DNA from: Tolumonas lignilytica
GTDB taxonomy: Bacteria; Pseudomonadota; Gammaproteobacteria; Enterobacterales; Aeromonadaceae
Reading direction: 5' to 3'
Length of the DNA stretch: 64,000 nt
Assembly: GCF_000527035.1 (NCBI RefSeq)
Contig: NZ_AZUK01000001.1
Location: 1,426,001-1,490,000, forward strand
The notes below the pieces were generated by a model. It worked only from the letters and a program-made list of their open reading frames with translations. It was not told the origin of the DNA and did no database searches. A program made the translations under genes and the position numbers. Shown here piece after piece: positions 4,836 through 51,205 of this stretch. Position 1 is the first letter of the stretch; each line of letters opens with the position of its first letter.

Positions 4836-4959
4836 GACGTATTCCTCAATTTGATTCCATCAGTGAAGGGACACATCAAACAGCTCAAAGATCATGATGT
4901 GCAGTTCAGTACAGACTACGATGATGAACGGGGTGTTTCATGTAACCTGCACATTAATA

Positions 4960-4974
4960 TTTTCACAATGAACG
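4960..4974. promoter_or_regulatory. Candidate SrlR operator 1
   Basis: TTTTCA-CAA-TGAACG, located 125-139 bp upstream of the srlA start. It shares the 6-3-6 palindrome layout with the copies at 4993, 5234 and 1526. Assignment to SrlR is inferred from repetition around the srl genes. Confidence 0.5.
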
Positions 4975-4992
4975 AACATTTGCACATTTTGA

Positions 4993-5007
4993 TTTTCACA
5001 TTGTGAT
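4993..5007. promoter_or_regulatory. Candidate SrlR operator 2
   Basis: TTTTCA-CAT-TGTGAT, 33 bp from operator 1 (centre to centre), about three helical turns. This spacing would suit cooperative binding of a DeoR-type repressor. Inference from repetition. Confidence 0.5.
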
Positions 5008-5075
5008 GCAAGTAGCGTTTTTAATTTGAAAACCACCTGAAATAAACTCATTCAACTCCACAAAGGAGGTTAGCA

Positions 5076-5174
5076 ATGATTTACATGCCTAAAACAGATT
5101 CAAAAGACACAAACAAAACCACAAAGGAATCCTCTGACCTCAATATACAATCGAAAAATGGCCCGTTTTCATGA
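5076..5174 (+). CDS. Possible 32-residue small protein
   Basis: A short frame of 32 codons between srlA and recG, preceded by an unusually good Shine-Dalgarno (AAAGGAGG, 6 nt before the ATG). The predicted peptide is hydrophilic and rich in Lys, Ser and Thr (starts MIYMPKTDSK, ends NGPFS), with no membrane segment and no family I recognise. The strong SD is the only positive evidence; it could equally be a leader peptide or a chance frame. Confidence 0.35.
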   Translation: MIYMPKTDSKDTNKTTKESSDLNIQSKNGPFS

Positions 5175-5231
5175 CAAAATAAAAATGAATCATCGATTCA
5201 GTACCTAAAATAGGCCTATAAATAAACATTG

Positions 5232-5250
5232 AATTTTCAAAATGAAAATT
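5232..5250. promoter_or_regulatory. Candidate SrlR operator 3 (perfect palindrome)
   Basis: AATTTTCAAAATGAAAATT, an 8-bp perfect inverted repeat with a 3-nt spacer and the best copy of the motif. It is about 400 bp from srlA and about 83 bp from recG. If it belongs to SrlR it could act by looping with operators 1 and 2. Confidence 0.45.
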
Positions 5251-5332
5251 TCTTTTTTATTTCCTGTCTCGATTTGCCCCTGCCATATCCTCTTGATAAT
5301 ATCTGGATAAATTCACAGTATCAGAGGCTTCC

Positions 5333-7402
5333 ATGGAACTCTCCGCGATCCCGATTTCGATGCTCAAGGGTGTCGGCAGCAAAGTGGCAGAAAAGCTAAC
5401 GCATCTGCGGCTGCATACTGTGCAGGATCTGCTGTTCCATCTACCGCTGCGTTATGAAGATCGCACGCGCCTCTATTCGATTGCCGAATTAAGGGCCGAC
5501 CATGCCTGTACCACCGAAGGGGTGATCCAGAGTTGTGACATTCAGCAGGGCAAGCGCCGTATGCTGTTGTGCCGCATCAGTGATGGTAGCGGCTCGCTGA
5601 CCTTGCGCTTCTTTCATTTCACCGCCGGACAGAAAAATGCACTGACGCCCGGTCGCCGCATTCGCTGTTTTGGCGAAATTAAGCGGGGTCTGCACGGCTT
5701 TGAAATCGTTCATCCGGAATACAAGCTGCAGGAAGAGGATGCGCCGCTGGAAATGGCCGCCACACTGACCCCGGTGTATCCGACAACCGAAGGCTTACGG
5801 CAGGCTTCGTTACGCAATCTGACCGAACAGGCCTTGCACTTGCTGCAAGAACATGGCGTAAAAGAGTTATTACCAGAAGGCCTCTATCCACGTCAGCTCA
5901 GTCTGAGTGCAGCGTTATTGTTACTGCATCGTCCGCCACCTGATGTCTCGCTGGCACAACTGGAAAATGGTCAGCATCCGGCACAACAACGGCTGGCGCT
6001 GGAAGAATTGATCGCACATCACCTCACCGTGCTGCAACTGCGCTACAGCGCGCAGCAACATCAGGCGTGTCCGCTGGCCACCAACTGGTCGTTATGCGAA
6101 CAGTTATTGGCCCGTTTGCCGTTTAAACCGACCGGCGCACAACAACGGGTCGTCAATGAAATCAGCCAAGATCTCACGCGCCCGCATCCGATGATGCGGC
6201 TGGTGCAGGGCGATGTCGGCTCCGGTAAAACCCTGGTGGCCGCGCTGGCCGCATTGCAGGTCATCGCGCACGGAGGGCAAGTGGTGCTGATGGCCCCCAC
6301 TGAGCTGTTGGCGGAACAGCATGCCAACAACTTCAGCAACTGGCTCACGCCATTGGGGATTGAAACCGGCTGGTTGGCTGGCAAGGTGAAAGGTAAAGCG
6401 CGTGAACAGCAATTAGCGGCCATTCGCTCCGGACAGGTCAAAATGGTGGTGGGCACCCACGCCGTCTTTCAGGAACAGGTGGAATTTCAACACCTATTGC
6501 TGGTCATTGTGGATGAACAACACCGTTTTGGTGTGCATCAGCGGTTGGCATTACGTGAGAAAGGAGCACAGGATGGCGTGTATCCGCATCAGCTGATCAT
6601 GACCGCCACACCGATCCCACGCACGCTGGCGATGACCATTTACGCCGATTTGGATACATCGATCATTGATGAGTTGCCGCCGGGACGAACCCCGATCACG
6701 ACCGTCGCCTTGCCGGATAGCCGCCGTGAAACCGTGATTGAACGGGTGCGTCAGGCCTGTCTGGAAGGACGTCAGGCTTATTGGGTCTGCACACTGATTG
6801 AAGAGTCGGAAGTGCTGGAGTGTCAGGCCGCGGAAAATACCGCTGAAGAATTACAACAACTGTTGCCGGAACTGCATATCGGGCTGGTCCATGGCAGGAT
6901 GAAACCCGTCGAAAAACAGCGGGTGATGCAGGAATTCAAAGAAGGCATTCTGCATCTGCTGGTCGCCACCACCGTCATTGAAGTGGGAGTTGATGTGCCA
7001 AATGCCAGCCTGATGATCATTGAAAATCCGGAACGGCTCGGGCTGGCCCAATTACACCAATTACGCGGCCGTGTCGGGCGCGGAGCCATTGCCTCGCACT
7101 GTGTTTTACTCTATCACGCTCCGTTGTCGAAAACGGCACAGCAGCGGCTCGGTGTTTTACGCGACAGCAATGATGGTTTCGTCATTGCCCAGAAAGATCT
7201 GGAGCTGCGCGGCCCCGGAGAAATGCTGGGGGCCAAACAGACAGGTCTCGCCGATCTGAAAATTGCCGATCTGGTGCGCGATCAGGCGCTCATTCCGCAG
7301 GTACAGCAGCTGGCGCAACGGATCTTCCAGCAATATCCGGCTTGTGTCACACCCCTGATCCGCCGCTGGTTTGGGGAACGCGATGAATATTCTCAAGCCT
7401 GA
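5333..7402 (+). CDS. recG: ATP-dependent DNA helicase RecG
   Basis: Superfamily 2 helicase that reverses stalled replication forks and processes branched recombination intermediates. It has 689 residues (E. coli 693). The N-terminal wedge/OB region (about 1-260) precedes the motor. Walker A GDVGSGKT is at 293-300, DEQH at 394-397 and TATPIPRT shortly after. Helicase C motifs include ATTVIEVGVDVPNA and QLRGRVGRG. The C-terminal ELRGPGEMLGAKQTG is characteristic of RecG. AGAGG precedes the ATG. In E. coli recG follows spoT and trmH; here it stands alone downstream of the srl region and leads a short plus-strand run with the AsmA-like gene. Confidence 0.97.
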   Translation: MELSAIPISMLKGVGSKVAEKLTHLRLHTVQDLLFHLPLRYEDRTRLYSIAELRADHACTTEGVIQSCDIQQGKRRMLLCRISDGSGSLTLRFFHFTAGQKNALTPGRRIRCFGEIKRGLHGFEIVHPEYKLQEEDAPLEMAATLTPVYPTTEGLRQASLRNLTEQALHLLQEHGVKELLPEGLYPRQLSLSAALLLLHRPPPDVSLAQLENGQHPAQQRLALEELIAHHLTVLQLRYSAQQHQACPLATNWSLCEQLLARLPFKPTGAQQRVVNEISQDLTRPHPMMRLVQGDVGSGKTLVAALAALQVIAHGGQVVLMAPTELLAEQHANNFSNWLTPLGIETGWLAGKVKGKAREQQLAAIRSGQVKMVVGTHAVFQEQVEFQHLLLVIVDEQHRFGVHQRLALREKGAQDGVYPHQLIMTATPIPRTLAMTIYADLDTSIIDELPPGRTPITTVALPDSRRETVIERVRQACLEGRQAYWVCTLIEESEVLECQAAENTAEELQQLLPELHIGLVHGRMKPVEKQRVMQEFKEGILHLLVATTVIEVGVDVPNASLMIIENPERLGLAQLHQLRGRVGRGAIASHCVLLYHAPLSKTAQQRLGVLRDSNDGFVIAQKDLELRGPGEMLGAKQTGLADLKIADLVRDQALIPQVQQLAQRIFQQYPACVTPLIRRWFGERDEYSQA

Positions 7403-16892: not shown

Positions 16893-19331
16893 ATGGCAAT
16901 TGTTGCGTCATCGCCATCGTTAAGTGATTTTCAACAGAAAATAGTTGATACATTCCGCTACGATTACGGTCACCCGCAACTGGATGAAAAAATCATTCAG
17001 TACGCCCCTAATGAAACGCCCTCCAGCAGGTTTCTGATAAAAATGGAAATCGCCCGTCTGGCAAAAAAATGTCATCGCGTCATTGATCTGAGAGAAAGCC
17101 AATCTGATTATAAATCCTTTGATTTTGAAGGGATAAGACATTTCATTAACGACACGACCATTACCGATTTCATCGAGATTTGTAAAAAATATAAAGGTTA
17201 CACGCAGGGTGCCTATGATCTTGTTATCGCCAGAGCGCTCAGTCGTGAAAAAAAGGAAAAAATAAATCCCAACGCGGTTGAAGTCCCGGAGGCCGGATAT
17301 ACATCTCTCACTCATTTTTATCGCAGAAAAGAACAACGTCTTTATTATGTATCCGAAATAGAAATCTATACTGAAACCGATAATAACAACGCCATCAATT
17401 TAGATAAAAAAACAGCGATTAAAGGAGCTACAACCGATATATCCGCCCATGGCATGTGTATCAAAACATCTGGGTTAAAAATAAAAGACGGCATCACGAA
17501 AGTTTATATTCGCTTCATCGGGTTTGAAAAAGAATTTTCCTTTTCAAACCCGGTATTTATTTCTTATAAATTACTCTCCTGCATTTCAAAGAAAAATAAT
17601 TATTACTACCGCATAAAAATCGATGAACACCAGCAAGGTGATACTTACGCAGAATTTCACGCACATATTCAAAAATTTGTCGTATCACAATTACGGCGGC
17701 ACAGAGTACCTATTGAAAACACTCAGGAAGCCGTGCTGGTCAAAGGCTATGAGCAATACATTATTAATCGGCTTAACCATCTACCGGTATTTCTGCAACA
17801 AAAAGAAAACAACTGGCTACCGAATGCTGTTTATCTCACTGGTCACAATGAAGCGATCCTGCAAAAGCTAACGGATATTGACCATCAGACCATGCTGATG
17901 GATCTGATTGCTCATGAAAAAATACAGCGTTTATTGCGGGAACAAGCCATTGTCTCTGATTATTTTTTTATCGCGCCAGTATCAACACCCCAGCATTACG
18001 CCAAATTCCTGATTATCTTTTTGGATGAATTTATTCATCATCCAGAAGCCAAAGAGATCGCCCGCCTGGCCCATGCCCGCAGTAAAGGCAACCTCATGCT
18101 ATTCCGCTTGGATGCCATCACCATGCATCCGGAAAAGGAGTGTTATATCACCAGTTCCCTGCCAGAAAATGCCAGTGAATCATTACAATTTATTAACGCC
18201 AGTCATCAGGAAAGGGCTAAAACGCTGGCCTCGGGTTACCAGAAAATGTTGGTGATCAGTGATACCTCGGATCTCATTAACCAACTGCAACTCTTTGAAA
18301 ATTCAGAAGCCAGTGAAACCATCGACAAGATGGCAATCTTCCAGTTTATTCCCAAGAAAACAGCGCATCACCGCGAACTGCATATTGTCAAAAATGAAAT
18401 AGAAGACAAACGAAAAGAAGATCGTTTCTTATATCAAATGCCACTCACGGTACATAATCTTAAAGCAGGCAAAGAAAGTATTTCTGCTGAGACCATTGAT
18501 ATTTCATCGTGTGGTTTAAAGATCAAAACCGATAAAACGTTGCATGTATTCACCGGTGATATTTTATATATCGATTTTCCACCATTGAATGAAACACTGA
18601 ACAAACAGCCCTATCAAATAGTGCGCGCGCAGGGAAATATTATCCAGCTAAAAATACATGGCAACGAACGCCATCATGAAGCGAAATTTGCACTCAGAAA
18701 ATTCATTTATCAGAATCTCAATTCACTGACTGCAACCGGATGCCGGGATACTGTTTATGGTCTTTCGCGGGCGCTGAGAAATCTTTATGCCCACAACCAT
18801 CCGCAAACGTCTATTTTTATTAAACGGCAGGATAAAATCCGTTATATCAGTGATATTGCGCTTTCAGATAAAACCATATTGCCAGAATTCAGTATTAATA
18901 ATGAAGAAAATAGGGCCTTGTATTTATCCGCCCTACGCCATGAGTTGGTCATCAAGAAAGTGAATGAAACGTGGAATCAAATAAAAACCCAACCCGGTTT
19001 TTATTCATTCCATGTTTTGATTACCGTAAAAGAAAAAAATAACAATGCTGGCTATTTTTATATCTTAAAAGATGCTGATGAATTATTTTCAGTGAATAAA
19101 TATCGTGACACATATCAACAGGCCTCCATGATGGGGGAAACCCGCCTGCTGAAAATTACGATAACCCCCAAGGGGAAGGTATTCCCCAAATATTTTCACG
19201 ATGAACTGGCCTATTTATCCCGTTATGCGCCTAATCGCGCCAGTATCATCATGGAGCAGATCAACAAAATTGATGCGGTAGGTTCTATCACCGATATCAC
19301 CGATTGCGTTAATCAATTACTGTCGATCTAA
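16893..19331 (+). CDS. Large protein with two PilZ domains
   Basis: 812-residue cytoplasmic-looking protein without a signal peptide or membrane helix. Two PilZ-type c-di-GMP-binding signatures are visible. The first has RRKEQRLYYV (about residue 147) followed by TDISAHGMCIKTS (about 187). The second has KRKEDRFLYQMP (about 508) followed by IDISSCGLKIKT. Both have the RxxxR plus (D/N)xSxxG layout needed for c-di-GMP. The sequence between and after them has no recognised family. The gene is AT-richer than its neighbours. It probably acts as a c-di-GMP effector in motility or biofilm control; the partner is unknown. AAGGTG lies upstream of the ATG. Confidence 0.8.
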   Translation: MAIVASSPSLSDFQQKIVDTFRYDYGHPQLDEKIIQYAPNETPSSRFLIKMEIARLAKKCHRVIDLRESQSDYKSFDFEGIRHFINDTTITDFIEICKKYKGYTQGAYDLVIARALSREKKEKINPNAVEVPEAGYTSLTHFYRRKEQRLYYVSEIEIYTETDNNNAINLDKKTAIKGATTDISAHGMCIKTSGLKIKDGITKVYIRFIGFEKEFSFSNPVFISYKLLSCISKKNNYYYRIKIDEHQQGDTYAEFHAHIQKFVVSQLRRHRVPIENTQEAVLVKGYEQYIINRLNHLPVFLQQKENNWLPNAVYLTGHNEAILQKLTDIDHQTMLMDLIAHEKIQRLLREQAIVSDYFFIAPVSTPQHYAKFLIIFLDEFIHHPEAKEIARLAHARSKGNLMLFRLDAITMHPEKECYITSSLPENASESLQFINASHQERAKTLASGYQKMLVISDTSDLINQLQLFENSEASETIDKMAIFQFIPKKTAHHRELHIVKNEIEDKRKEDRFLYQMPLTVHNLKAGKESISAETIDISSCGLKIKTDKTLHVFTGDILYIDFPPLNETLNKQPYQIVRAQGNIIQLKIHGNERHHEAKFALRKFIYQNLNSLTATGCRDTVYGLSRALRNLYAHNHPQTSIFIKRQDKIRYISDIALSDKTILPEFSINNEENRALYLSALRHELVIKKVNETWNQIKTQPGFYSFHVLITVKEKNNNAGYFYILKDADELFSVNKYRDTYQQASMMGETRLLKITITPKGKVFPKYFHDELAYLSRYAPNRASIIMEQINKIDAVGSITDITDCVNQLLSI

Positions 19332-22409: not shown

Positions 22410-22994
22410 ATGGCCAGAGGCGTGAATAAAGTCATTATCGTTGGCAATCTGGGGCAAGACCCGGAAGTGCGTTACATGCCGAATGGCAACGCAGTGGCCA
22501 ACTTCACCGTTGCGACCAGCGAAAGCTGGAAGGATCAACAGGGCCAGCTGCAGGAACGTACTGAGTGGCATCGCATTGTGGTTTACCGCCGTCTGGCTGA
22601 GATCGCGGGTGAATATCTGCGTAAAGGTGCCAAAGTGTATCTGGAAGGTCGTCTGCAAACGCGTGAATGGGTCGATCAACAAAGCCAGCAAAAACGTTAC
22701 ACCACTGAAATCATTGTCAATGAAATGCAAATGCTGGATACCCGCAGCGGCGCGCCTGCTGGCGGCAACATGGGAGCACCGGCACAGCAACCACAACAAG
22801 GTAATTGGGGTCGCCCTGCCGCCGCCGCGCCACAGGGTAATGCGAATCCTGGTTACGGTGCACCGGCTGCACCACAAGGGGGTTATGCTCCTGCCCCGGC
22901 AGCACAGCAAGGGGGTTATGCTCCTGCCCCGGCAGCACAGCAACCAACCTATAACGAACCACCGATGGATTTCGACGACGATATTCCGTTCTGA
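22410..22994 (+). CDS. ssb: Single-stranded DNA-binding protein
   Basis: Essential ssDNA-binding protein, 194 residues. The OB-fold core (about 1-112) has [20 protein letters not shown] and [19 protein letters not shown] Gly/Pro/Gln/Ala-rich linker follows, and the acidic tip DFDDDIPF recruits partner enzymes. The linker contains an exact 33-bp tandem duplication ([11 protein letters not shown] twice). GGAG precedes the ATG. It is divergent from uvrA and followed by an intrinsic terminator. Confidence 0.98.
22875..22940 (+). repeat. 33-bp exact tandem duplication in the ssb linker
   Basis: Two identical 33-bp units (22875-22907 and 22908-22940) encode [11 protein letters not shown] twice in the disordered linker of SSB. 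Identity at the DNA level points to a recent slippage or unequal-crossover event. It leaves the frame intact. Confidence 0.95.
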
Positions 22995-23031
22995 AGTTAA
23001 CCAGATACATTTATCGTAGAATATCATTCTT

Positions 23032-23058
23032 AAAGCCCAGTTTTTACTGGGTTTTTTT
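23032..23058 (+). terminator. Intrinsic terminator after ssb
   Basis: CCCAG and CTGGG form a short stem around TTTTTA, flanked by A-rich and T-rich arms that extend the pairing, followed by a run of T. It lies 37 bp past the ssb stop codon. Confidence 0.8.
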
Positions 23059-23371
23059 ATTTCCAGGTTAAATAAAATCTGGCTTGTATCCCGCACATCA
23101 CAAAACCACTTATCCGGCTGTCATACAGATCTTTTTTCCCCTTTTTCAAACAGATTCTAGCAGCGATCTATCTGCGAAAAACACAAATTTAAAATCACAA
23201 ACACATAAATATGTCAATTTAATTACCAAGTAAACTTAAACTAAACCGATTTAGCTCACATATTTTTGTTTTCAAGTGATTCCTGTTGTGTTACTTTTTA
23301 ATGAGAGATGGCAATTAACCGATTGTCATTCTCATTTGGTTAACTAACTCTCCTTCTGTGAGCGGTTACTT
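23059..23371. other. Non-coding upstream region of the levan operon
   Basis: About 310 bp of AT-rich sequence with no credible gene. It holds a LacI-type near-palindrome (23241-23254) and must contain the promoter for the riboswitch leader, most likely between 23255 and 23371. I could not fix the -35 and -10 boxes. Confidence 0.5.
23241..23254. promoter_or_regulatory. LacI-type operator-like palindrome
   Basis: CTAAACCGATTTAG, a 14-bp palindrome with one mismatched pair and a central CG, resembling operators of LacI-family sugar regulators (ScrR/FruR type). It lies about 130 bp upstream of the c-di-GMP riboswitch. No LacI-family gene is in the window, so the cognate regulator is unknown. Confidence 0.4.
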
Positions 23372-23457
23372 AACTGAAAAAGGCAAAACCATCGAAAGGT
23401 GGCGACGCAAAGTCTCCGGTCTAACGGAATTTTCCTACGATAGCGGGACCGCCAGTT
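23372..23457 (+). ncRNA. Class I c-di-GMP riboswitch (GEMM-I)
   Basis: The aptamer matches the GEMM-I consensus closely. P1 is AACTG (23372-23376) with CAGTT (23453-23457). GGCAAA follows, then the first arm CCATC-GAAA-GGTGG with its GNRA tetraloop. Next come the invariant GACGCAAAG and TCCGGTCTAA, a second arm closed by GGAA/TTCC, and the end TACGATAGCGGGACC. It resembles the Vibrio Vc2 aptamer. It lies 236 nt upstream of the levansucrase start in the same orientation. A hairpin with a T-rich tail follows at once, so control is probably by transcription termination. Whether c-di-GMP turns expression on or off cannot be read from the sequence. Confidence 0.92.
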
Positions 23458-23463
23458 TTGTAT

Positions 23464-23507
23464 GCCGGCACGTTTCTTTTCGTGTCCGCGATTTGATTTT
23501 GTTTTTT
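23464..23507 (+). terminator. Candidate riboswitch expression-platform terminator
   Basis: GCCGGCACG (23464-23472) and CGTGTCCGC (23481-23489) form a 9-bp stem with one mismatch and one G-U pair around TTTCTTTT. The T-rich tract GATTTGATTTTGTTTTTT follows. It begins 7 nt after the aptamer, where a riboswitch terminator is expected. Confidence 0.65.
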
Positions 23508-23693
23508 CACTCTAGCCCGTGATGCCTTCAGGCATTGCGCAGCCTCGTATTGCCTTGTGCAAGCTGGCGGCGCTTTCTTGGATGCATCCGGTGCCGAGGG
23601 CAAAGTCGTTTCTGGATTTAACCGGCAAAACTGCGGATATCCATTGCATCTGGAAATGGTGGATGTTTACGAAAAACAATGGAGGTTAATACC

Positions 23694-25268
23694 ATGAAAA
23701 ACCATCGATACCTGTCGGTAATCCCCGTGCTGGGAATGGCCATGACTGTCGCAACAGCCGCAGTTGCCGCTCCTGTTCTACAGCCAGGTCCTGAGCCGAC
23801 CACTCACTCGCAGCAGGCATATGCCCCAGAGGATAACTTCACGGCGAAGTGGACTCGTGCCGATGCGCGCCAGATCAAACGGATGTCCGATCCGACTGCT
23901 GGCTCGCGTGAAAACTCAATGCCAGAGGAATACACCATGCCAAGTATTCCTCAAGACTTCCCTGACATGTCGAACGATCAGGTCTGGGTGTGGGATTCCT
24001 GGCCGCTGACCGATGCCGATGGAAACCAATACAGCATTAACGGTCAGGAAGTTATTTTCTCCCTCGTGGCTGATCGGAAACTGGGTTTCGATGACCGCCA
24101 TGTGTTCGCGAAGATCGGTTATTTCTACCGTCCGGCAGGCATTCCAGCGGATCAACGGCCGAAAAATGGGGGGTGGACCTATGGTGGTCTCGTCTTCGCC
24201 GATGGAGTCACCGGCAAGATCTTCGAGGATCAGTCATACAGCCATCAGACACAATGGTCTGGCTCTGCGCGCATTTTCCCTGGTGGCGAAGTTAAGCTGT
24301 TCTTCACCGATGTTGCGTTCTACCGTGATGCCAAGGGCAATGACATCAAGCCGTATGATCCACGGATCGCGCTCAGCGTGGGCCATATACATGCGAACAA
24401 GAACGGCGTGACATTTACCGGTTTCGATAAGGTTATTCCGCTCCTGAAGGCTGATGGTACTTACTACCAGACCGCCGAACAAAACCCATACTTCAACTTC
24501 CGCGACCCGTTTACCTTCACAGACCCGGCTCATCCGGGTGAGACCTATATGGTCTTCGAGGGGAATTCGGCCATGCCGCGTGCATCAGCCAAATGTACAG
24601 CAGATGATCTTGGCTATCAGGAGGGTGATACCTATGCAGAGACAGTTCCACAAGTAAATGCATCGGGGGCGACCTATCAACTCGGCAACATCGGTCTGGC
24701 GAAAGCCAAAAATGCCGATCTGACGGAGTGGGAGTTCCTGCCACCGATTCTCTCGGCGAACTGCGTGACCGATCAGACCGAACGTCCCGAGATCTACAAG
24801 AAAGATGGCAAGTATTATCTCTTTACCATCAGCCACAGCACCACCTATGCGGCCGGCATTACAGGCCCTGAAGGTGTATATGGTTTCGTGGGCAACGGGA
24901 TCCGCAGCGATTACCAGCCAATGAACATGGGCTCCGGTCTGGTACTGGGCAATCCGTCAAACCTTAACTACTGGCCAGGCACTCCATATGATCCTGACTA
25001 CAACCAGCCAGCCGGTCACTTCCAAGCATACTCTCACTACGTGATGCCTGGTGGTTTGGTGCAGTCGTTCATCGACACGGTGGGTGTTAAGGAAAACTTC
25101 CGTCGCGGCGGCACGCTGGCCCCTACGGTGAAGATCAATATCCATGGCGACTCATCGGACGTTGATCATTCCTATGGCGCCAACGGCGATGGTCTGGGTG
25201 GTTGGGCGGATATTCCGGCAAACATCAATGTGAACCCGAGCGGGGTCATTACCAAGCCGCTGAATTAA
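23694..25268 (+). CDS. lsdA: Levansucrase (GH68)
   Basis: Secreted fructosyltransferase that splits sucrose and polymerises fructose into levan or fructo-oligosaccharides. It has 524 residues from the ATG at 23694 (GGAGG upstream; the frame extends five codons further). A Sec signal peptide ends near AAVAA (about residue 26). Catalytic residues are visible: nucleophile Asp101 in VWDSWP, transition-state stabiliser Asp271 in FRDPF, and acid/base Glu363 in TERPE. Cys301 and Cys357 are 56 residues apart. All are at a constant offset from Gluconacetobacter LsdA D309, E401, C339 and C395, so the same disulfide is likely. It is of the acetic-acid-bacterial type rather than the Bacillus type, suggesting transfer. 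Its leader carries the c-di-GMP riboswitch. Confidence 0.95.
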   Translation: MKNHRYLSVIPVLGMAMTVATAAVAAPVLQPGPEPTTHSQQAYAPEDNFTAKWTRADARQIKRMSDPTAGSRENSMPEEYTMPSIPQDFPDMSNDQVWVWDSWPLTDADGNQYSINGQEVIFSLVADRKLGFDDRHVFAKIGYFYRPAGIPADQRPKNGGWTYGGLVFADGVTGKIFEDQSYSHQTQWSGSARIFPGGEVKLFFTDVAFYRDAKGNDIKPYDPRIALSVGHIHANKNGVTFTGFDKVIPLLKADGTYYQTAEQNPYFNFRDPFTFTDPAHPGETYMVFEGNSAMPRASAKCTADDLGYQEGDTYAETVPQVNASGATYQLGNIGLAKAKNADLTEWEFLPPILSANCVTDQTERPEIYKKDGKYYLFTISHSTTYAAGITGPEGVYGFVGNGIRSDYQPMNMGSGLVLGNPSNLNYWPGTPYDPDYNQPAGHFQAYSHYVMPGGLVQSFIDTVGVKENFRRGGTLAPTVKINIHGDSSDVDHSYGANGDGLGGWADIPANINVNPSGVITKPLN

Positions 25269-25295: not shown

Positions 25296-25345
25296 AGAGG
25301 GGCGATGCGGTAGTGCGACATGCCGCCGCATCCCCTCTCTTTTTT
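25296..25345 (+). terminator. Intrinsic terminator between lsdA and lsdB
   Basis: AGAGGG plus GATGCGG pair with CCGCATC plus CCCTCT to form a 13-bp stem with a 2-nt bulge (25296-25338), followed by C and six T residues. It lies in the 98-bp gap between the levansucrase and levanase genes and should reduce read-through into lsdB. Confidence 0.85.
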
Positions 25346-25366: not shown

Positions 25367-27013
25367 ATGAACCTCAATCTCATCGCCATGATTGCGACGC
25401 GTCGACGAGTCATCGCTTGTGCGCTGGTCGCTTTCGGCATCGCAGTAGCCGTCGTCAGAGCCGAACCAAGCACTGCATCCGATTCCGGACATTTACTCGC
25501 ATCGCCAACCGAAGCATCCCCGTATTTACGTCCGCATGACTGGACCCCTTATCGACCCGCACTGCACCTCACCCCCGCCAAGCACTGGATGAACGATCCG
25601 CAGCGTCCGCTCCTGATCAACGGCGTCTGGCACTACTACTATCTCTATAACGCTGATTACCCCAACGGCAACGGCACCGAATGGTTCCATATGACCTCAA
25701 TCGATCTTATTCATTGGCAGGAACACGGTGTCGCAATCGACAAATACAAAAATGGCCTCGGCGATATTGAGACCGGCAGTGCCGTGATTGACACCAAGAA
25801 CACTGCCGGTTTCGGGGCGGGTGCGGTGATTGCAATCATGACCCAGCAGCACGAAGGCGTGCAGCGCCAGTCGCTCTTCATTTCGACCGACGGAGGCTAT
25901 CGCTTTAAGGCATACGATGGTAACCCGGTCATGGACAACCCGGGTGTGCACGACTGGCGTGATCCGAAGATCATCTGGGACGATGCTCGCAACGAATGGC
26001 TCATGGTGCTCGCCGAGGGCCAAAAAATCGGCTTCTACACCTCCCCAGATCTGAAGCACTGGACGTATCAATCAGGCTTCGTGCGCAATGACCTCGGTCT
26101 GCTTGAATGCCCCGATCTGTTCCGCATGTCCGTTGATGGCAACCCGGCACACATCCGCTGGGTGCTTGCGACTGGTGCGAACGGTGCCAGTCTGGGCATG
26201 ACCACGGGCACTGTATATTGGACGGGGGACTGGGATGGCAAACATTTTACCGCCGACGATGCTACCCCTCGCTGGCTCGACGCGGGCGCTGATTTCTATG
26301 CGATGGTGACATGGGACGATCCACGTCTGAATACGACGCAGCGTCTCGCCGCTCGATATGCCATCGGCTGGCTCAACAACTGGGCTTACGCCACCCAACT
26401 GCCGACGACCGGCTGGCATGGCGGTACCGACTCGCTCGTACGACGCATCGAATTGCACTCGGTGGATGGTAAATTGATGCTCGTTTCGCAGCCCATCGAA
26501 GCCCTCGATAAACTTGAAGGCAACACCGTGGTCCGCTCGAAGGTACGCGTAAGCAATGCCGTGAATACACCCCTTCCCCAACCCCAATCCGATGCCTATC
26601 GGCTTCGTATCACGCTCGATGCGACCTCCGCTGCCAACGAAATCCGCTTCCGTCTTAAGGAAAAAGAGGGGCACTTTGCCGTCGTTGGCTACAACTTCCG
26701 CCGGAACACCGTTTTCATCACGCGGGAAGCCGATGCCATCGCCAACTTGATGCCTGCCATTTACCGTGAAGTGCGTCAATCTCGGGCACCGGCACGTAAT
26801 GGCATGATCACGCTCGATATCATTGTTGATACAAGCTCAATTGAGGTTTTCGTGAATGACGGCGAAGTGGTGCTGTCGGATCTCGTCTTTGCGCCACCAG
26901 GGGCCAACCGACTTTCCGTCGAGATCATTGGCGGGGATGCAGAACTGCGCTTCTTCCAACTCTCGTCCCTCAGGGTGGTACCGATTCAACGTCACGCAGC
27001 AGATGCTCAGTGA
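25367..27013 (+). CDS. lsdB: Exo-levanase / fructanase (GH32)
   Basis: Fructan hydrolase of 548 residues, likely releasing fructose from levan. The N-terminus (about 1-32) has a basic stretch TRRR then a hydrophobic run, consistent with a signal peptide ending near VRAEP. GH32 motifs are intact: WMNDPQ with nucleophile Asp77, WRDPK with Asp199, and LLECPDLF with acid/base Glu247. A C-terminal beta-sandwich (about 400-535) ends the protein, with SSIEVFVNDGEVVLSD typical of GH32. GGAGG lies 6 nt before the ATG. The lsdA-lsdB order is that of Gluconacetobacter diazotrophicus, from which I borrow the symbol. A terminator stands on each side. Confidence 0.9.
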   Translation: MNLNLIAMIATRRRVIACALVAFGIAVAVVRAEPSTASDSGHLLASPTEASPYLRPHDWTPYRPALHLTPAKHWMNDPQRPLLINGVWHYYYLYNADYPNGNGTEWFHMTSIDLIHWQEHGVAIDKYKNGLGDIETGSAVIDTKNTAGFGAGAVIAIMTQQHEGVQRQSLFISTDGGYRFKAYDGNPVMDNPGVHDWRDPKIIWDDARNEWLMVLAEGQKIGFYTSPDLKHWTYQSGFVRNDLGLLECPDLFRMSVDGNPAHIRWVLATGANGASLGMTTGTVYWTGDWDGKHFTADDATPRWLDAGADFYAMVTWDDPRLNTTQRLAARYAIGWLNNWAYATQLPTTGWHGGTDSLVRRIELHSVDGKLMLVSQPIEALDKLEGNTVVRSKVRVSNAVNTPLPQPQSDAYRLRITLDATSAANEIRFRLKEKEGHFAVVGYNFRRNTVFITREADAIANLMPAIYREVRQSRAPARNGMITLDIIVDTSSIEVFVNDGEVVLSDLVFAPPGANRLSVEIIGGDAELRFFQLSSLRVVPIQRHAADAQ

Positions 27014-51029: not shown

Positions 51030-51072
51030 TGATTGACAGTAACGCCTCCTCGCCGCCAGAATGCATATGAAT

Positions 51073-51148
51073 GTGACCGGGGTGCCGCCATGCGGCTGAG
51101 AGATACCCGCACCACCTGATCTGGATCATGCCAGCGTAGGGAGTTCAC
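51073..51148 (+). ncRNA. TPP riboswitch
   Basis: Contains the thi-box core: GGGGTGCC, GCGGCTGAGAGATACCC, ACCTGATCTGGATCATGCC and AGCGTAGGGA, in the usual order. The ends GTGAC and GTTCAC can pair as P1. It precedes thiM by 60 nt. TPP binding is expected to shut off the operon. Confidence 0.96.
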
Positions 51149-51205
51149 GACGGCGCTGCCGTCCTCCTTCTGCTGCGCATTTTGTCTGCCATATTGAAGG
51201 AGGAC
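51149..51205 (+). promoter_or_regulatory. thiM expression platform (SD sequestration)
   Basis: GTCCTCCTTC (51161-51170) is perfectly complementary over 10 bases to GAAGGAGGAC (51196-51205), the thiM ribosome site. An alternative hairpin, GACGGC-GCT-GCCGTC (51149-51163), overlaps the first three bases of the anti-SD. This points to translational control by the TPP riboswitch. Confidence 0.8.

Follow-up and report, generated by a model that had tools for sequence, protein, structure and literature searches.

A predicted c-di-GMP-I riboswitch, with a candidate competing 5' helix, upstream of paired GH68 and GH32 fructan genes in Tolumonas lignilytica

Biofilm formation is signalled mainly by cyclic di-GMP (c-di-GMP); fructan made from sucrose serves bacteria as matrix and storage material, and its synthesis is usually thought to follow sugar supply. 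The gene pair considered here is of a familiar kind: lsdA and lsdB are, by family number, GH68 and GH32 genes. Their levansucrase-levanase operon in Gluconacetobacter diazotrophicus and Komagataeibacter has the same order, GH68 then GH32, and the accessible part of its description mentions no c-di-GMP riboswitch (PMC6528568). Cyclic-dinucleotide riboswitches near polysaccharide genes are already known too: the GEMM-Ib switches of Geobacter, which sense cGAMP, are found upstream of genes for polysaccharides, pili and cytochromes (PMC6456294). Among c-di-GMP-I aptamers the nearest parallel is Vc1 of Vibrio cholerae, which lies in the long leader of gbpA (start 225-244 nt before the open reading frame), a gene for a secreted protein of surface life that is positively regulated by c-di-GMP. 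The contact residues of Vc1 are conserved, its binding of c-di-GMP is far weaker than that of Vc2, and it has no apparent terminator or anti-Shine-Dalgarno element (PMC4744006). Cd1 is a c-di-GMP OFF switch, contrasted in its source with the cGAMP ON switch pilM (PMC9262584), and Bc1 binds c-di-GMP with no response of its genes (PMC11218506).

In the window (the whole 64,000-nt stretch of T. lignilytica DNA that was analysed) an aptamer of the c-di-GMP-I class precedes a GH68 gene and, beyond it, a GH32 gene (Table 1). The locus resembles Vc1-gbpA in leader length, secreted product, retained contact residues and lack of an obvious terminator or anti-Shine-Dalgarno element; it differs in its target, fructan enzymes here and a chitin-binding colonisation factor there (PMC4744006). 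It differs from the RF01051 family at large, whose core and contact residues it shares, in having an extra 5' helix (P0) that excludes the aptamer's closing helix P1, and in a GH68/GH32 target that the open-access papers searched did not yield. Nor did a link between a c-di-GMP riboswitch and a levansucrase, which the preliminary description presented as not known from earlier work, turn up among the open-access PMC papers listed, including the accessible parts of PMC6528568, PMC12910134 and PMC4646962.

Table 1. Features of the fructan locus, in window coordinates
Feature	Position	Strand	Remarks
Promoter candidate TTTTCA-N17-TACTTT	23269..23297	+	weak, 7/12 matches; just upstream of H0
H0, hairpin at predicted transcript 5' end	23301..23335	+	-14.1 kcal/mol, z -4.6
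P0, predicted stem-loop	23337..23376	+	predicted in 7/7 leaders, z -1.2 to -3.0
c-di-GMP-I (GEMM-I) aptamer, P1-closed	23372..23457	+	Rfam RF01051
H1, conserved hairpin 3' of aptamer	23464..23489	+	-11.2 kcal/mol, z -3.2
Shine-Dalgarno GGAGG of GH68 gene	23682..23686	+	read from sequence
GH68 fructosyltransferase (levansucrase / beta-fructofuranosidase type)	23694..25268	+	PF02435, 475.3 bits
Hairpin and U-rich tail between GH68 and GH32	25296..25340	+	-26.5 kcal/mol, z -3.25
GH32 levanase-like fructan hydrolase	25367..27013	+	PF00251, PF08244

An Rfam scan of the whole window returns two matches above gathering score, a c-di-GMP-I aptamer and a TPP riboswitch, the latter far downstream (51068-51160, +; 65 bits against a gathering score of 54.3). 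The former, at 23372-23456 (+), sits where the preliminary description had seen a GEMM-I aptamer and bears that reading out: it runs the full length of the model (1-87 of 87) and scores 73.8 bits where 35 would suffice for gathering, with E = 1.4e-12. Its last base lies 238 nt ahead of the GH68 start codon, which also upholds the placement in a GH68 leader. The Vc2 residues that contact c-di-GMP are G20, A47 and C92 (PMC4744006); our own mapping through the Rfam alignment places their equivalents at G 23382, A 23409 and C 23452, so that all three are retained. The first of these separates the two kinds of sensor, a G20A change converting GEMM-I to cGAMP binding (PMC6274999, where a crystal structure is named): unlike the cGAMP-sensing Geobacter switches, the window aptamer would have the G of c-di-GMP sensors. 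Its ligand would be c-di-GMP.

That signal should be available in the cell, since the genome of the window (3.63 Mb) holds three aptamers of this type and 49 GGDEF matches. The second aptamer (L001 1501-1593) precedes a long frame that apparently holds a GGDEF match, and feedback on c-di-GMP synthesis is possible there; an ATGGCAA further downstream, present there and in the Tolumonas counterparts, could by eye pair with the 3' side of P1. The third (L003 1501-1585; 50.7 bits) is laid out classically, with a U-tract hairpin directly 3' of the aptamer and the 3' strand of P1 apparently common to both (by eye), an arrangement that the GH68 leader lacks. PilZ is a c-di-GMP-binding type of domain, and a PilZ-domain protein of 812 amino acids is encoded three genes upstream of GH68 (16893-19331, +).

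What do the two enzymes make and break? The GH68 domain is confirmed (PF02435, E = 2.3e-142; start codon taken as 23694), the N-terminus is signal-peptide-like, and VWDSW (99), FRDPF (269) and ERPEIY (363), which we take to be the catalytic motifs of GH68, are present. The closest solved structure is a beta-fructofuranosidase, 3vsr (878.7 bits), ahead of the levansucrase 1w18 (613.2 bits); these come from Microbacterium saccharophilum K-1 and G. diazotrophicus, respectively (PMC7432509), and the window enzyme thus stands nearer to the former than to the levansucrase of the G. diazotrophicus system. A GH68 of M. trichothecenolyticum has been characterised as an invertase (PMC8060482); a Vibrio natriegens levansucrase, for which 3vsr was likewise the modelling template, yielded 85 g/L of levan (PMC7432509). 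Levan synthesis by the window enzyme is plausible on this comparison; of the levansucrase that the preliminary description named, the family assignment stands and levan is a putative product, the nearest solved relative being a beta-fructofuranosidase. The GH32 protein has as its best solved relative the endolevanase LevB1 (9h8i, 396 bits). The two genes are adjacent on one strand, as their description as an operon would have it, and may be co-transcribed, but a strong hairpin lies between them. The simple terminator scan, which admits loops of 3-8 only, does not call this hairpin; a G+C-rich hairpin occupies the same place in five relatives (by eye; V. mytili left out). It is possibly an attenuator or partial terminator, in which case GH32 may be made at a lower level.

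How general is the association of aptamer and GH68? With the GH68 protein as query, 36 loci (11 + 13 + 12) were found on genome contigs, and all of them were scanned with Rfam. Five have the aptamer, each time upstream of GH68 and on its strand: Tolumonas osonensis (71.7 bits), Vibrio albus (82.7), Vibrio sp. J1-1 (74.9), V. mytili (74.2) and Marinobacterium rhizophilum (69.7). The 31 others comprise three from Azotobacter/Azomonas and 28 from actinobacteria, and two of the 31 (L028 and L038) begin at the gene, with no visible upstream DNA. A whole-genome search added Tolumonas G399 (74.7 bits), and with the window there are seven leaders from three families (Aeromonadaceae, Vibrionaceae and Oceanospirillaceae), in all of which the whole aptamer is kept, 203-293 nt ahead of the start codon. 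GH32 is the same-strand neighbour of GH68 in each of the other six riboswitch loci. On these comparisons, the GH68-GH32 leader is well supported as the site of a c-di-GMP riboswitch.

GH68 genes of the window's type are rare: at E <= 1e-100 they were found in 3 of the 394 genomes searched from the order (one of the three being that of the window), in 3/59 genomes of one genus at the same threshold, and at 1e-20 in 4 of 395 genomes of the Vibrio family, three of these being close. Within Tolumonas, 3 of 11 genomes (four of the 11 less than 90% complete) have GH68, always with the aptamer before it. A pattern search allowing at most one mismatch recovered only the window's own genome from 369 genomes of the class; a search of 147 genomes for the genus of V. 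mytili, and through it for more leaders, gave a best match of 70% identity. The leader found no match among plasmids, and a protein search found relatives of GH68 in 71 plasmid records.

The surroundings of the pair change from locus to locus. Counting frames of at least 120 amino acids, the outer neighbours are ssb and a lytic transglycosylase in the window, a Na/Ca exchanger and a sulfatase in T. osonensis, HSP20 and a GGDEF protein in V. albus, an ABC1-type kinase (upstream) in Vibrio J1-1, ArsP and an EAL protein in V. mytili, and a transposase in G399; in Marinobacterium the upstream side has a type II secretion gene as its second frame, and downstream lies a protein with no Pfam match. 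The GH68-GH32 pair, to judge by these comparisons, is one that travels with its own leader. Two further observations concern the neighbourhood: 1) uvrA is found near the fructan genes both in Marinobacterium (L006 10209-11534, +) and in the window, in different arrangements; 2) GGDEF, EAL and GGDEF-EAL genes adjoin the pair in three Vibrio-family loci (L005 8305-10230, -; L036 8364-9878, +; L070 1463-3649, -), the last of which is without the aptamer.

Aligning the leaders of the seven riboswitch loci, whose sequences are related to one another, reveals a conserved block from ~23301 to ~23500 in which H0, P0, the aptamer and H1 follow in order. Position 23372, given in the preliminary description as the start, is accordingly right for the aptamer; the conserved unit begins some 70 nt earlier. 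H0 is predicted in all seven leaders (z -1.0 to -4.6), with sequences that differ between genera and with two-sided changes in its helix. The outer helix of P0 joins 23337-23343 to 23370-23376 (cells 91.8% paired, with a two-sided change at a single pair), and its 5' arm is a conserved CU-rich strand. P1 joins AACUG (23372-23376) to CAGUU (23453-23457), with every cell paired in all seven leaders and one pair changed on both sides, in T. osonensis. AACUG, the 5' strand of P1, thus belongs to both helices, and P0 and P1 are consequently mutually exclusive. The shared strand is AACUA in T. osonensis, where each of its two partners is UAGUU, which preserves both pairings. In H1, 83.9% of cells are paired and two-sided changes affect two pairs; the hairpin is weak in Vibrio J1-1, at -1.6 kcal/mol.

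Covariation support from seven related leaders is thin. RNAalifold, run on the alignment, predicts H0, P0 and H1, and P1 is absent from its structure; when pairs with two-sided changes are counted together with H1, shuffled alignments reach the observed number in 118 of 500 trials for P0 and 79 of 500 for P1, and the covariation scores are reached by 4 (P0) and 0 (P1) of 500 shuffles. An exchange of P0 for P1 upon c-di-GMP binding is, on balance, the reading toward which we lean.

Starting from the observed aptamer, its conservation, the complementarity of both helices and the gene order, we consider it probable that the riboswitch sets expression of the GH68-GH32 pair according to cellular c-di-GMP. 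The proposed sequence of events is as follows. In the nascent leader H0 and P0 would fold first, and P0 would sequester AACUG, the 5' side of P1. At low c-di-GMP P0 would persist and the base of the aptamer stay open. Binding of c-di-GMP at the aptamer junction would allow P1 to form with CAGUU, displacing P0 and leaving the leader in a P1-plus-H1 form. That form would favour expression, so that high c-di-GMP would switch on the secreted fructan enzymes.

Might the aptamer bind c-di-GMP without affecting its genes at all, as published for Bc1 (PMC11218506)? The unit does appear to be decaying in places: GH68 of Tolumonas G399 is split into two frames (L073 4950-6441, -), and in V. mytili the main GH68 frame (L036 ~4891-6458, +) differs from that of the start codon and GH32 is also split, though these breaks may be either decay or sequencing error. 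Against so inert an aptamer stands the conservation of aptamer, P0 and H1 beside the same gene in three families with different outer neighbours, and we regard this as the least probable of the alternatives.

Where would the transcript begin? From the promoter candidate, which ties in score with two others among those shown for the window, transcription would start at ~23303; a stricter scan of 22990-23760 finds no promoter. Promoter-like matches lie at a similar distance in T. osonensis (TTTCCA-N17-TACTTT) and Marinobacterium (TTGAAA-N16-AATATT), and about equally far in Vibrio J1-1 and V. mytili (TTGAAT-N16-TATGAT); G399 and V. albus have none at that place. A terminator-like hairpin after ssb (23032-23055, +) fits a separate transcript for the fructan genes. 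It is also the sole plus-strand call of the terminator scan of 22990-23760.

That scan bears on how a change in the leader might reach the genes. The hairpin that the preliminary description reported 7 nt after the aptamer is there (H1), but its terminator-like character finds no support. A transcriptional riboswitch with H1 as intrinsic terminator could appeal to the closeness of H1 to the aptamer, to a T-rich stretch that follows it in the window, and to the layout of the third aptamer of the same genome. H1 is not called by the scan, however, which finds no intrinsic terminator 3' of the aptamer on the plus strand; the six-T run at 23502-23507 is 12 nt past the outermost base pair of the hairpin, and the six relatives all lack, by eye, a T-tract immediately 3' of H1. 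We therefore reject H1 as an intrinsic terminator and hold that version of the switch to be improbable. Of the proposal that the riboswitch gates the operon, the c-di-GMP riboswitch in the leader survives; gating by a terminator lacks support.

Control at translation initiation is another candidate. In the opposite sense to the mechanism set out above, c-di-GMP could free the CU-rich strand of P0 to pair with the Shine-Dalgarno sequence and block translation, an OFF switch. In the window the strand UUAACUAACUCUCCUUCUG is more complementary to the Shine-Dalgarno region than 98% of shuffles (P 0.02) and in T. osonensis than 96% (P 0.04); in the other five leaders complementarity stays within the shuffle range (P 0.09-0.94), even though the CU-rich strand is conserved. 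We also compared Shine-Dalgarno accessibility after forcing either the P0 or the P1 form on all seven leaders in ViennaRNA. The P1 form gives the lower value in six of them, and the shift amounts to 0.07-0.19 in four and to at most 0.03 in three (the decrease being only 0.01 in two of the six). If anything, these modelled shifts lean toward OFF, but they are small, and sequestration of the Shine-Dalgarno sequence was not adopted. Repression of a matrix enzyme at high c-di-GMP would, moreover, be unexpected on general knowledge. The OFF switch is in our judgment unlikely, if less so than the other alternatives.

A third route would use the 3' strand of P1: freed, it could pair together with an arm of H1 to CCGGCAAAACUGCGG (23622-23636), ~70 nt before the start codon. 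The best partner of that strand is equidistant from the start codon in six of the seven leaders, and the duplex energy is -20.9 kcal/mol both for the window and for T. osonensis. Yet the energies of the remaining five leaders, from -13.2 to -17.3 kcal/mol, overlap those that the same strand gives at this place in four aptamer-less loci (-8.7 to -15.7 kcal/mol), the window's best partner is actually another site (-21.3 kcal/mol), and P falls below 0.05 within a leader's own sequence only in the window (for that other site) and in T. osonensis. We make no claim for this pairing, which is not specific, and a long-range switch built on it is as doubtful as one built on an H1 terminator. With neither an intrinsic terminator nor a clear Shine-Dalgarno sequester found, RNA stability, Rho and pausing become the candidate output steps for the proposed exchange of P0 and P1.

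The sign of the switch, as the preliminary description rightly said, is not visible in the DNA. We favour an ON switch with some confidence, by analogy and physiology only: Vc1 is the precedent, and raising the level of a matrix enzyme when c-di-GMP is high has an evident logic.

Not every close relative of these enzymes is under an aptamer. Four Vibrio-family loci (G106, G224, G751 and G1146, the last being L079) encode GH68 proteins 81-82% identical and have the GH68-GH32 pair as in the window, with no aptamer at the gathering score. Instead, each of the four carries a pair of CTTAATCGNTTAAG palindromes in the upstream 1 kb, an arrangement found in none of the seven riboswitch loci. These palindromes resemble operators of the LacI family, and we read them as putative sites of that kind, together with TTTAACGTTAACA in both Azotobacter loci and CAAAACGTTTTG in L025 and L027 (both by eye). 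Read in this way, the aptamer seems to be placed where a sugar repressor acts elsewhere. The two kinds of control may also coexist: in the three Vibrio riboswitch loci (L005, L007 and L036) the aptamer is followed by one GGGAACGTT site, 131-142 nt ahead of the start of GH68, which is possibly a repressor site and makes a second control layer possible there.

In a GH68 tree of 25 sequences all seven riboswitch loci and the four aptamer-less ones form a single clade of 11 members (95/99). Six riboswitch loci make up one group (87/86) and Marinobacterium joins the four aptamer-less loci (94/95), so that the aptamer label requires two changes on the tree; one gain and one loss fit this distribution, which does not prove them. 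The comparison suggests a regulatory swap between the aptamer and paired CTTAATCGNTTAAG palindromes. One can go further, tentatively, and think of a self-contained, horizontally moving fructan cassette that carries its own c-di-GMP switch, in which P0 competes with P1 from the 5' side in place of the customary 3' platform, and of a sister lineage that exchanged the switch for operators of the sugar-repressor type. The 5' competitor helix is what seems unusual here, and the apparent evolutionary swap with palindromes is of interest.

A direct RNA link of this kind would join the biofilm signal to fructan without a protein regulator. The conserved P0 supplies a model, open to experiment, of how Vc1 and similar c-di-GMP riboswitches might work, and the loci with and without the aptamer, arranged around closely related enzymes, constitute a natural experiment that sets control of the sugar-repressor type against a second-messenger RNA. 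If the cassette reading is true, the same enzymes are run in some bacteria by the biofilm signal and in others by a sugar signal.
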